Positions 1,566 through 5,879 of a DNA stretch of 10,431 nt are shown here, one piece after another. Origin of the DNA: an uncultured Burkholderiales bacterium (GTDB taxonomy: Bacteria > Pseudomonadota > Gammaproteobacteria > Burkholderiales > Burkholderiaceae_C); NCBI GenBank assembly GCA_937897495.1, contig CALCBL010000611.1, positions 1-10,431 of the forward strand, in the 5' to 3' direction. Below the pieces are notes generated by a model. The model had not been told where the DNA came from and did not search any database. It saw only the letters and a list, made by a program, of their open reading frames with translations. The translations under genes were made by a program, and so were the position numbers. Numbering within the stretch: position 1 is the first letter of the stretch; every line of letters begins with the position of its first letter.

Positions 1566-2963
1566 ATGGCCTCCGCTCTCACCGACAAACTCTCGCTACT
1601 TGTTAAGCAGATCAGTGGACAAGCGCGGATCACTGAATCCAACGTGTCCGACATGCTGCGTGAGGTGCGCATGGCGCTCTTGGAAGCCGACGTTGCGCTG
1701 CCAGTCGTTCGCGATTTCATTGCCCGTGTCAAAGAAAAGTCCTTAGGTCAATAGGTCTTGGGTTCTTTGAAACCCGGCCAAGCCTTGGTGGCCATCGTGA
1801 ACCGCGAACTGGCCGCCACCATGGGCGATGGTGTGGCCGACATCAATTTAGCGGCGCAACCGCCGGCGGTGATTTTGATGGCGGGCTTGCAAGGTGCCGG
1901 TAAAACCACCACCACGGCCAAATTGGCCAAGCACTTAATAGAAAAGCGCAAGAAAAAAGTGCTGACTGTGTCGGGCGACGTCTACCGACCCGCGGCCATT
2001 GAGCAGTTGAAAACTGTCACGGCACAAGCTGGCGCTGAATGGTTCCCAAGCTCACCCGATCAAAAGCCCTTGGACATTGCGCGCGCCGCCATTGATTACG
2101 CACGCAAACATTTCTTTGACGTGCTGTTGGTAGATACAGCCGGTCGCTTGGCCATTGACGAAGCCTTGATGGCCGAAATTCGCGAACTGCACGCTGTTTT
2201 GAAGCCGGTTGAAACCTTGTTTGTGGTCGATGCCATGCAAGGACAAGATGCCGCCAACACGGCCAAAGCATTTAGCGATGCGCTGCCACTCACTGGCATT
2301 GTGCTCACCAAGATGGATGGCGACTCACGCGGTGGCGCTGCTTTGTCTGTGCGTCAAATCACGGGCGCTCCCATCAAGTTTGCAGGTACCAGCGAAAAAA
2401 TTGACGGTCTCGAAGTGTTTGATGCCGAGCGTCATGCCGGCCGCATTTTGGGCATGGGCGATATCTTGGCCTTGGTCGAGCAAGTCACGGCAGGCATCGA
2501 CATGGAGGCCGCCCAAAAAATGGCGGCCAAAGTCAAAAGCGGCGCTGGCTTTGATTTGAATGACTTCTTGGCACAAATTCAGCAAATGAAACAGATGGGT
2601 GGTTTGTCGAGTTTGATGGACAAATTGCCCAGCCAACTGGCGGCCAAAGCGGGCAACATGGATTTGGGCAAAGCAGAAAAAGACATGGCCCGCAAGCAAG
2701 GCATCATTCACAGCATGACGCTCAGGGAGCGCAGCAAACCTGAACTCATCAAGGCCACGCGCAAGCGCCGAATTGCCATGGGCGCGGGTGTTCAAGTGCA
2801 AGAGGTGAACCGCTTGCTCAAAGAGTTTGAGCAGATGCAAGACATGATGAAAAAAATGTCGGGCGGCGGCATGATGAAAATGATGAAGCGCTTGGGCGGT
2901 ATGAAGGGTATGGGAGGCTTGGGTGGCATGGGCGGGGGTGGATTCCCCGGCATGAAACGCTAA
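1566..2963 (+). CDS. ffh: Ffh, signal recognition particle protein, interrupted by an in-frame TAG at codon 63
   Basis: SRP GTPase that binds 4.5S RNA and signal sequences and delivers ribosomes to FtsY at the membrane; normally essential. From the ATG at 1566 the frame codes 62 residues ending in KEKSLGQ, meets TAG at 1752-1754, and continues in the same frame to TAA at 2961-2963 (465 positions counting the TAG, a normal length). The segment before the TAG matches the first helices of the N domain (LREVRMALLEADVALPVV). After it come the rest of the N domain (SLKPGQALVAIVNREL), the P-loop GLQGAGKTT (107-115), DVYRPAA, DTAGR (190-194), TKMDGD (248-253), and the methionine-rich M domain with RKRRIAMGAG and a Gly/Met-rich tail. 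E. coli Ffh has Glu in the cognate position (GHEV), so one G-to-T change in GAG explains the stop. No other lesion is seen. A TTG at 1758 could restart translation, but would give a 402-codon open frame (including stop) lacking much of the N domain. No clear Shine-Dalgarno precedes the ATG at 1566. Identity is certain; whether the product is functional is open. Confidence 0.95.
1752..1754 (+). other. In-frame amber codon within ffh
   Basis: The reading is TCC TTA GGT CAA TAG GTC TTG GGT TCT TTG AAA, i.e. SLGQ-stop-VLGSLK. By comparison with E. coli Ffh (KAVGHEV...SLTPGQ) the stop replaces Glu, in the linker between the third and fourth helices of the N domain. The next possible start is TTG at 1758, with weak purine runs TTAGG (1743-1747) and ATAGG (1751-1755) before it. 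Explanations in order of my expectation: sequencing or consensus error, a real recent mutation, or suppression of the stop. Confidence 0.95.
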
Positions 2964-2975
2964 TAGCATATGCTA
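2964..2975. repeat. 12-bp perfect palindrome just after ffh
   Basis: TAGCATATGCTA follows immediately after the ffh stop codon, in the 43-base spacer between the convergent ends of ffh and the glutamine-synthetase-like gene. It has no loop long enough for a stable RNA hairpin, so it is more likely a protein site or chance. Confidence 0.4.
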
Positions 2976-2978
2976 AGT

Positions 2979-3002
2979 TGCCCGGCAGTTTTGCGTTGGG
3001 CA
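2979..3002. terminator. Possible weak bidirectional terminator between ffh and the ligase gene
   Basis: TGCCC at 2979-2983 can pair with GGGCA at 2998-3002 around a 14-base loop that contains a further GCA/TGC pairing. Its place between two convergent gene ends fits a terminator. The stem is short and no T-run follows on either strand, so this is a weak call. Confidence 0.25.
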
Positions 3003-3006
3003 GACC

Positions 3007-4518
3007 TTAAATGCGGCTGAAATATTCGCGCCGCTGAAATTCAACAGGGTCTTTTGCTTCATTGAAACGTGTTTGCTCTGACTGCTTGATGCGTTGGTAA
3101 TAGCGCACAAAATCTCGGCCTAAGCCTGCATTCAAAACCGCGTCTGCGTCCAAGTGTGTCAGAGCTTCGACCAAGGTGATCGGCAGGCGCGTGCCGCCCT
3201 CGGCATAGGGCGTTTCTGTGGCCTCGGGAGCACTCAGTGAATTTTGAATGCCATCTAACCCGGCCAAAATTTGCGAGGCCATGTACAAGTAGGGGTTGGC
3301 GGCAGGTTCACCCAATCTGTTTTCAATGCGTGTGGCAGGGTCGCCCGCGCCGCCCACCACTCTGAGCATGGCACCCCGGTTGTCACGACCCCACAAAATG
3401 GCTTGCGGCGCAAGTGCGTTGGGTTTGAAGCGGCCAAAGCCATTCACGGTGGTGGTGCACAAAGACGTCATGCCTTGGCCATGCGCCAACAAGCCTGCCA
3501 AATAATGTGCGCCCATGTTGGACAGCGTGTGGCGAGCATCGTTGGCCCGAAGAGCTTGGGCTTCTTGAATATCTTGTTGTGAAGTCCGTGCAAAAAGATT
3601 GTGCCCAGAAGACAAGTCATAAAGCGATTGGTGCAGGTGCCAGCCGCTGCTCATGATGTTGTCAAATGGGGGTCGGCACATGAATGTGGCGTGATAACCG
3701 CCTCGCCGCAAGGCTTGTTTGACGGCGCTTCTGAACAAGACCATGTTGTCGGCGGCGGTCATGGCATCGGTGACTTTGAACACCGCTTCAACTTGGCTGG
3801 GGCCGAGTTCAATCTCTAAAGATAACAGCGGCAAACCCAAGTCCTGAGCGGTTTGCTTCACAATTCTCAGAGCAGGTTCTGCGCGGTCAAACCACAACTC
3901 ATTTAACAAGTTGTAGCCAGGATGGATCATGCTCACTTGGGGTGCGGGCCCTGGCCATGAAGCTTGTACAGGATCGGCATCATCGCCATGGTCTGCATCT
4001 TTGAGTTTGTAAATGTGAAACTCAACTTCAAGACCGCATTTCATGCCCCAGCCTTTGGCGGCCACTTTTTCAAGCGCGCTTTGCAAGATGCGGCGTGAGT
4101 CATAGGGCACGGCTTGACCGTTGGGAAACCACGGTTGGCACAACAGCCATCCGGTTTTTTCGGCCCATGGCAGTATTTTGAAAGTGCTGGGATCGGGCAA
4201 CAGCATGACATTGCTGGCGCCTTCAAATCCAGGCAACTCAGTTTTGACATTGGCCTCGAACACCTTGTACACCGTGCGGTCGGAAGTGTCTTTGAGCATG
4301 AGGGTGCTGACCATGCCCATGCCCTCTGCGAAGGCGGCGGCCAACTCGGAGGTGACCCATGTTTTGCCGCGCAAACTACCGTGCACATCGCACCACACCA
4401 AACGTATCCATTCAAGGCCTGAGGCTTGAGCCAAGGACAGAACCTTTTGAACTTCAGCTTGCCTGTGAGGCGTGTTCTGGCCGCATTGTTCGGCAAAGCT
4501 GATGCGTTTTAAATTCAT
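3007..4518 (-). CDS. Glutamine-synthetase-like gamma-glutamyl ligase
   Basis: 503-residue member of the glutamine synthetase superfamily, of the kind that joins the gamma-carboxyl of glutamate to an amine using ATP (PuuA, IpuC and TdnQ/AtdA1 are characterised relatives in function). An N-terminal beta-grasp region is seen as VWCDVHGSLRGK (about 41-52). The catalytic domain follows: GLEVEF (162-167, metal-binding glutamates), SLEIELGPSQVEAVF (233-247), SGWHLHQSL (291-299, nucleotide/metal-site His), then GRFKPNALAP, WGRDNRGAMLR and RIENRLGEPAANPYLYMA with the active-site Arg/Glu. The ATG at 4518-4516 overlaps the Rieske gene stop as ATGA. A start 78 bases further upstream is open but would lie inside the Rieske gene and adds an unrelated-looking extension. 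The operon with an oxygenase suggests amine catabolism rather than nitrogen assimilation; the substrate is unknown. Confidence 0.88.
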   Translation of the reverse strand: MNLKRISFAEQCGQNTPHRQAEVQKVLSLAQASGLEWIRLVWCDVHGSLRGKTWVTSELAAAFAEGMGMVSTLMLKDTSDRTVYKVFEANVKTELPGFEGASNVMLLPDPSTFKILPWAEKTGWLLCQPWFPNGQAVPYDSRRILQSALEKVAAKGWGMKCGLEVEFHIYKLKDADHGDDADPVQASWPGPAPQVSMIHPGYNLLNELWFDRAEPALRIVKQTAQDLGLPLLSLEIELGPSQVEAVFKVTDAMTAADNMVLFRSAVKQALRRGGYHATFMCRPPFDNIMSSGWHLHQSLYDLSSGHNLFARTSQQDIQEAQALRANDARHTLSNMGAHYLAGLLAHGQGMTSLCTTTVNGFGRFKPNALAPQAILWGRDNRGAMLRVVGGAGDPATRIENRLGEPAANPYLYMASQILAGLDGIQNSLSAPEATETPYAEGGTRLPITLVEALTHLDADAVLNAGLGRDFVRYYQRIKQSEQTRFNEAKDPVEFQRREYFSRI

Positions 4519-5879
4519 GCGGCTTTGGTCAATGAAGCATTCCAAGGTGCGCCATCGCGTTTGGCCTGCATGGTGTCTGTGGACCATGTTTGCCAACCTT
4601 GGGCGGGTGCAATGCCATCCACCGTGTCCGGTCCTGTTCGAGATGCGGCCACTTCAGGGTTGGCAAACCCGGGCGGCAATAAACCCGCGGCCACGTCGTC
4701 AATGGCTTTGGCCAAAATGCGCCGGTTGGCAATGATCACTTTGTCGGAGGTGCCCAAATGTTCGCGTGTGCGGTTTTGGATGGCGCCCATGCTTTCGCAA
4801 GCCCACTGATCATGCACATTGATGTCGTCTTCGCCCATGCCTAAAAAGGTGCGCGTCATTTGCTCTTCTGGGTTAAAGCCCCATTGGTTGTGTTTGCCAG
4901 ATTTTGGAATGTAGTCGGGCAAACTGACAGCCTCCAGGCGCTGCTTGCGCATGGCATCTTTGTTGACGGGATCGGCAAAGCTGGTGAACACCGCATACCA
5001 GTAAGTGCGCGTGTCATCGACTGGCACGTGCATTTGAGTGATGGTCATGGTTTCCGACAAGGGAATGACAAAGGTGTTGGGAAACAAAGAATTGGTAATG
5101 CGAACGTGCGTGAGTTTTTCGTTCAAGGGCCTGAGGGTGGTCAGTTGAAAGCCGTAGGGCTTTTCTGTGAAAGAAATCTCGGGCTGATCAAACTCGCGCA
5201 TGACCTTTGTCATGGGCCATTTTTCACCTTCTATTTCGCCGGCACTGGCGCCGCGAAATTGCTTGCCGTAGGTGTCTTCAAGCGAGGCGTCGTTGAAAAA
5301 ACGGTGCAAGAAAGAAGCATGGGCAGGGTCGATGCCCACTTCAAATGCTTGAAGCCAATTGCAATGCCACAAGCCTTTGAATGCGAAGGTGTGTGTGCCA
5401 GGTGCTTTGAAACAATCGAGTTCTGGCAAGGGCGGCGGCGTACTGCCTTCTGCGCCCATCCATGCAAACAAAATGCCACTGCGTTCTTGGACGGGGTAAT
5501 TGCGCTGCTTGATGCGCGTACACAAAACGCTGCCTTTGGGCTCAGCTGGCGTTTCTAGGCATTGACCCGTGACATCAAATTTCCAACCATGGAAGGGGCA
5601 ACGAAGGCCATCGCCTTCATTGCGGCCATAGGCCAAGTCGGCTCCGCGGTGCGGACAGTCGCGGTCTAGCAAACCAAATTCGCCTTGTGCGTTTTTGAAC
5701 AAGACCAAATCTTGGCCTAGCAACTTGACAGCCTTGACGGCTCGAACGCCCATGTTGGGATCTAGTGCGGGATTGAACTCATCGAGCAAGGCCACTGGGT
5801 GCCAATAGTGGCGCATGACTTGCCCACAAGGGGTACCGGGGCCAATGCGCGTGACGCGCTCATTTTGTTCAGCTCTCAT
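4515..5879 (-). CDS. Rieske non-heme iron oxygenase, alpha subunit (phthalate-dioxygenase-like)
   Basis: 454-residue oxygenase component that inserts oxygen into an organic, usually aromatic, substrate using electrons from a reductase. The N-terminus (IGPGTPCGQVMRHYWHPV, 12-29) is typical of the phthalate 4,5-dioxygenase / single-subunit branch. The Rieske [2Fe-2S] ligands are Cys75-x-His77 in DCPHRGADL and Cys94-x2-His97 in CPFHGWKFD. The mononuclear iron site is seen in NWLQAFEVGIDPAHASFLH, with the Asp184-x2-His187-x4-His192 spacing of characterised dioxygenases. The C-terminal ESMGAIQNRTREHLGTSD is also family-typical. The third, carboxylate iron ligand is probably the Asp/Glu cluster just before it (GEDDINVHDQWACES). 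No beta subunit, ferredoxin or reductase gene is in the window, so the electron partner is elsewhere. The ATG at 5879 has only a weak ribosome site. It is the first gene of a two-gene operon with the ligase. The substrate cannot be read from sequence. Confidence 0.92.
   Translation of the reverse strand: MRAEQNERVTRIGPGTPCGQVMRHYWHPVALLDEFNPALDPNMGVRAVKAVKLLGQDLVLFKNAQGEFGLLDRDCPHRGADLAYGRNEGDGLRCPFHGWKFDVTGQCLETPAEPKGSVLCTRIKQRNYPVQERSGILFAWMGAEGSTPPPLPELDCFKAPGTHTFAFKGLWHCNWLQAFEVGIDPAHASFLHRFFNDASLEDTYGKQFRGASAGEIEGEKWPMTKVMREFDQPEISFTEKPYGFQLTTLRPLNEKLTHVRITNSLFPNTFVIPLSETMTITQMHVPVDDTRTYWYAVFTSFADPVNKDAMRKQRLEAVSLPDYIPKSGKHNQWGFNPEEQMTRTFLGMGEDDINVHDQWACESMGAIQNRTREHLGTSDKVIIANRRILAKAIDDVAAGLLPPGFANPEVAASRTGPDTVDGIAPAQGWQTWSTDTMQAKRDGAPWNASLTKAA

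Follow-up and report, generated by a model that had tools for sequence, protein, structure and literature searches.

Does the TAG that interrupts the ffh gene on this contig represent the gene carried by living cells, or does it belong to the draft assembly in which it was found? The window, that is, the whole stretch of 10,431 nucleotides analyzed here, is the entire contig C611 of the draft genome G000 (2,706,258 bases in 682 contigs; completeness, 94.95%; contamination, 4.97%), which we take to be metagenome-assembled because it is fragmented. The host is a freshwater-type bacterium related to Limnohabitans. Among the best 80 of 577 loci encoding relatives in named genomes, the nearest Ffh is that of the Burkholderiales MAG LinL2_bin-0731 (99% over 365 residues), followed by those of Limnohabitans sp. 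Rim11 (96%) and a Limnohabitans MAG (95%). At the DNA level, the closest relative is G020, a genome of the same genus, with 94.7% identity in ffh and 92.5% across 9.1 kb; no conspecific ffh copy or genome was found in the comparison sets.

Read from the ATG at 1566, ffh runs for 62 codons to the TAG at 1752 to 1754 (codon 63), continues with 402 sense codons, and ends with TAA at 2961 to 2963, so that a single uninterrupted Ffh frame is not present. Reading of the frame confirms an earlier note, in which this TAG was the only interruption between 1566 and 2963. The GTPase and M-domain motifs described there as intact belong to domains that Pfam finds complete after the stop, with PF00448 (SRP54 GTPase domain) matched at positions 1 to 196 of 196 (E 9.3e-70) and PF02978 (signal-peptide-binding M domain) at positions 2 to 91 of 91 (E 8.6e-31). 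The TTG placed two codons past the stop is likewise present, at 1758, and a piece starting at the later ATG at 1821 retains the G- and M-domain matches (Pfam). The features discussed below are as follows.

1566 to 1751, plus strand: first piece of ffh, 62 codons, a partial SRP54_N helical bundle (PF02881 positions 1 to 57 of 75, E 9.3e-17)
1743 to 1748, plus strand: TTAGGT, a weak Shine-Dalgarno-like stretch in the sequence, whose AGG ends 10 nt before the TTG at 1758
1752 to 1754, plus strand: in-frame TAG, codon 63, the sole stop at this column among 110 loci
1758 to 2963, plus strand: second piece of ffh, open from TTG, 401 amino acids with complete G and M domains (Pfam), 98% identical to the G020 protein
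1821 to 1823, plus strand: next in-frame ATG in the sequence (codon 86), a possible internal start, with no Shine-Dalgarno by eye

The stop appears to be peculiar to the window. The genome comparison comprised 40 genomes, namely, the window's own, 23 of the same genus, and 16 of the same order. Of the 23 from the same genus, 21 gave an ffh match, and in each of them the gene was uninterrupted. The same-genus genomes G019 and G021 (66% and 84% complete) yielded an FtsY-like match only, and ffh is probably missing from them through absent sequence. Stops flagged inside ffh of two order-level relatives, G036 and G028, were rejected as natural gene ends. In a set of 110 loci (the window, 29 from one genome collection, and 80 from named records, with possible double counting of some genomes), codon 63 is a sense codon in all 109 loci other than the window (94 Glu, 13 Asp, and 2 Ala). 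The aligned E. coli chain also has Glu in this column, as had been claimed, and the Glu codon of the nearest relatives is one substitution away from TAG, in keeping with the proposed single change from a Glu codon. When a protein collection was queried with the read-through product and with the 401-amino-acid piece, the best matches were full length, the top one being 98% identical (120 best of 8,000 scored for each query); P0122 (432 amino acids) and P0123 (407 amino acids) start upstream of codon 63 and have Glu at the site. P0121, an Ffh of 398 amino acids that is 96% identical and lies on a 2,900-base contig, starts five codons past the site; it is probably a contig-edge fragment, since its first residue is Leu and not Met.

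A second complete ffh, which according to the earlier note would remove the puzzle, was not found in G000, where the sole other match was FtsY. In viral contigs, three stretches fit a pattern, and none of them encodes a relative. Matches were obtained in 37 phage records, with at most 64.2% identity among the best 20 matches, and a plasmid collection searched solely for near matches gave none.

How long the stop may have been present was assessed from the differences between the window and G020, the direction of change being polarized with six more distant same-genus loci. On the window lineage, the part downstream of the stop had acquired 10 synonymous and no nonsynonymous changes and the upstream part 1 synonymous change plus the stop, which is the only nonsynonymous change assigned to this lineage. 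On the G020 lineage, there were 10 synonymous and 4 nonsynonymous changes downstream and 4 synonymous changes upstream; a further 33 synonymous and 2 nonsynonymous differences downstream, and 7 and 2, respectively, upstream, were unassignable. Between the window and G020, dN and dS amount to 0.0065 and 0.223 downstream of the stop and to 0.0145 and 0.316 upstream of it, and to judge from these substitutions, ffh apart from the stop is under strong purifying selection. A coding sequence offers about three nonsynonymous sites per synonymous site. Had the downstream part evolved without constraint during a fraction f of the window branch, about 30f nonsynonymous changes would be expected beside the 10 synonymous ones; because none was assigned, f would be below about 0.1, an estimate that the two unassigned nonsynonymous differences could loosen. 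The lack of downstream decay leaves a stop that is unreal, or very young, or borne by a gene whose product still works.

We consider it probable that the TAG either is an error in the consensus of a fragmented draft or was taken up by the assembler as a rare allele present in a mixture of strains. This reading is favored because the stop is unique in 110 loci, the rest of the gene is conserved, the SRP partners and RF1 are present, and the draft is fragmented. The TAG would then be a difference of one base in an ffh gene that is otherwise normal and of which no second copy was found, the population's working gene would be an ordinary uninterrupted ffh, and the TAG base would not be representative of living cells. 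Of the four causes listed in the earlier note, an artifact and a recent mutation indeed fit best, whereas a suppressor tRNA and a split gene are without positive support. Internal stops are a documented assembly artifact (Cooley and Wright 2024, PMC11017572), and all assemblers probably produce occasional local assembly errors, as stated in a review on MAG curation (PMC7111523). Stop codons make up 3.8% of the outcomes of single substitutions in long ORFs. With a consensus error of 1e-5 and a coding content of 2.4 Mb, both of them assumed values, about 0.9 error-made stops would be expected per genome, a number to be set beside the fact that this stop was picked for looking odd. A literature search on premature stops caused by sequencing errors in essential genes of MAGs returned no match.

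What counts against an assembly error is that the assembly is not visibly error-ridden in the sampled genes. Every eighth contig of G000 was taken (80 in all), 36 of which were readable and 44 of which were all N, and 659 ORFs were collected from 40 G020 stretches, 75 of them aligning with G000 at 60% identity or more over a total of 23,052 residues. Ten in-frame stops were flagged in 8 of these 75 ORFs. Five flagged ORFs were inspected and turned out to be three over-extended starts and two shadow frames; in the three others, the stop falls at ORF position 3 to 5, and these were taken, uninspected, to be over-extended starts. Within the 75 aligned ORFs, the script reported no frameshifts, and in a comparison of nine other window genes with G020, the window had neither a frameshift nor an internal stop, the AMP-binding gene being covered for 607 of 1,572 bases and the regulator-like frame at the window end being excluded. 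One of the nine has a 6-base in-frame gap relative to G020. A codon-bias scan for stop-interrupted genes produced 124 unsorted candidates against a background distorted by N-filled contigs, and the tally of stop codons used below is a recount that leaves these contigs out. In the small sample of aligned ORFs, nothing pointed to general read-through of TAG. The clean ORF sample is weak evidence either way, since only about 0.03 error stops are expected in 23,052 residues at 1e-5.

The sequence next to ffh has its own irregularity. A mosaic patch of about 650 bp (2970 to 3620) starts just past ffh and reaches the C-terminal part of a glutamine-synthetase-like gene; it is 68 to 85% identical to G020, versus 92 to 99% in the flanking bins. 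Because G020 and G005 remain 79 to 89% alike across the patch, the odd copy is that of the window, having arisen by recombination or chimeric assembly. The glutamine-synthetase-like gene lies in tandem with a Rieske oxygenase of the LigXa_C type on the minus strand (3007 to 5879; Pfam).

The main rival is that the sampled strain truly carries a nonsense mutation of very recent origin, which we regard as possible but rather unlikely. One substitution is enough to create the stop, and the absence of nonsynonymous changes among the 10 assigned downstream fits a mutation too young for decay, although by the estimate above, the downstream part would have been unconstrained for less than about 0.1 of the branch. 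Such a strain might get by with little or no Ffh because it grows slowly, reads through the stop in part, or carries extragenic suppressors; alternatively, the lineage might be dying out. Loss of SRP was found to be survived by Streptococcus mutans and, given suppressors, by E. coli (PMC7844537), which favors this possibility and calls for some softening of the statement that ffh is normally essential. Retention of the SRP partners speaks against a mutation but would be equally expected after a very recent loss. FtsY is encoded by an uninterrupted frame of 376 amino acids on contig C288, and 4.5S RNA (RF00169) scores 56.5 bits on contig C75, with a cutoff of 40. A TAA flagged in FtsY is not internal, as it falls where the 376-amino-acid frame ends.

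Alternatively, codon 63 might be decoded by an amber-suppressor tRNA with a CUA anticodon, or by natural read-through, to give full-length Ffh. We consider this improbable, even though the frame past the stop is open and conserved. The search for a CUA-anticodon tRNA advised in the earlier note was carried out, and none of the 19 tRNAs found in G000 has this anticodon; the set is incomplete, and a suppressor could sit in missing sequence. A pattern combining CUA with a T arm gave 3 matches versus 9 in the reversed control, its T-arm part fitting 14 of the 19 known tRNAs, such that it could miss a suppressor. One of the three matches is tRNA-Arg(tct), and the other two are not tRNAs according to ARAGORN, which added no CUA tRNA on the 36 readable contigs. 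RF1 is present, with a prfA match of 500.5 bits that lacks an internal stop. TAG is an ordinary stop in this genome, since it closes 13 of the 178 ORFs that reach 200 amino acids (TGA, 86; TAA, 79), as tallied over mechanical ORFs, rather than curated genes, from the 36 readable contigs and the window. Thus, neither RF1 loss nor TAG avoidance, either of which would mark genome-wide recoding of TAG, was found, and the G020-ORF sample yielded no convincing TAG-interrupted gene. Taken together, a suppressor tRNA in this genome is unlikely. Among the literature matches listed, none had a title that concerned an amber codon in ffh.

Least probable of all, and very doubtful in our view, is a stop that is real and fixed, with Ffh made as an N-domain peptide that terminates at codon 63 and a GTPase-M protein restarted at the TTG at 1758 (or the ATG at 1821) that acts alone or with the N piece. 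The TTG lies two codons past the stop, with TTAGGT just upstream as a putative Shine-Dalgarno sequence, codon 60 is TTA in the window alone of 110 loci, and both pieces retain domain matches. Against this, TTG at codon 65 is shared with 8 of the 109 loci that lack the stop, which makes 9 of 110 once the window is included, and the N domain would be severed at profile position 57 of 75. P0121, with its start five codons past the site, is at best a lead, as it begins with Leu, and no other protein starting at its place was noticed among the 120 best of 8,000 scored, for which seven sequences were read. Spacing aside, nothing speaks in favor of a split Ffh.

If the TAG were real and fixed, a core protein-targeting factor would be split or recoded, which would be surprising. 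An error or a rare allele, as we prefer to read it, carries a more practical message, namely, that a stop created by one base in a housekeeping gene of a draft genome needs to be backed by reads before conclusions are drawn from it.

In conclusion, the locus resembles Ffh/SRP54 in that its G and M domains are complete and its N domain is largely present and differs from it in that the frame is split by one TAG at codon 63. Amber suppression and stop-codon recoding are characterized by a TAG inside a conserved frame. The window shares this feature, whereas its genome has RF1, uses TAG as a normal stop, and yielded no CUA tRNA among the 19 tRNAs found. Assembly-made pseudogenes (PMC11017572) provide the remaining comparison: the sampled part of this genome is unlike them in being without an excess of internal stops, but the locus is like them in combining an internal stop, an otherwise conserved gene, and a draft assembly.
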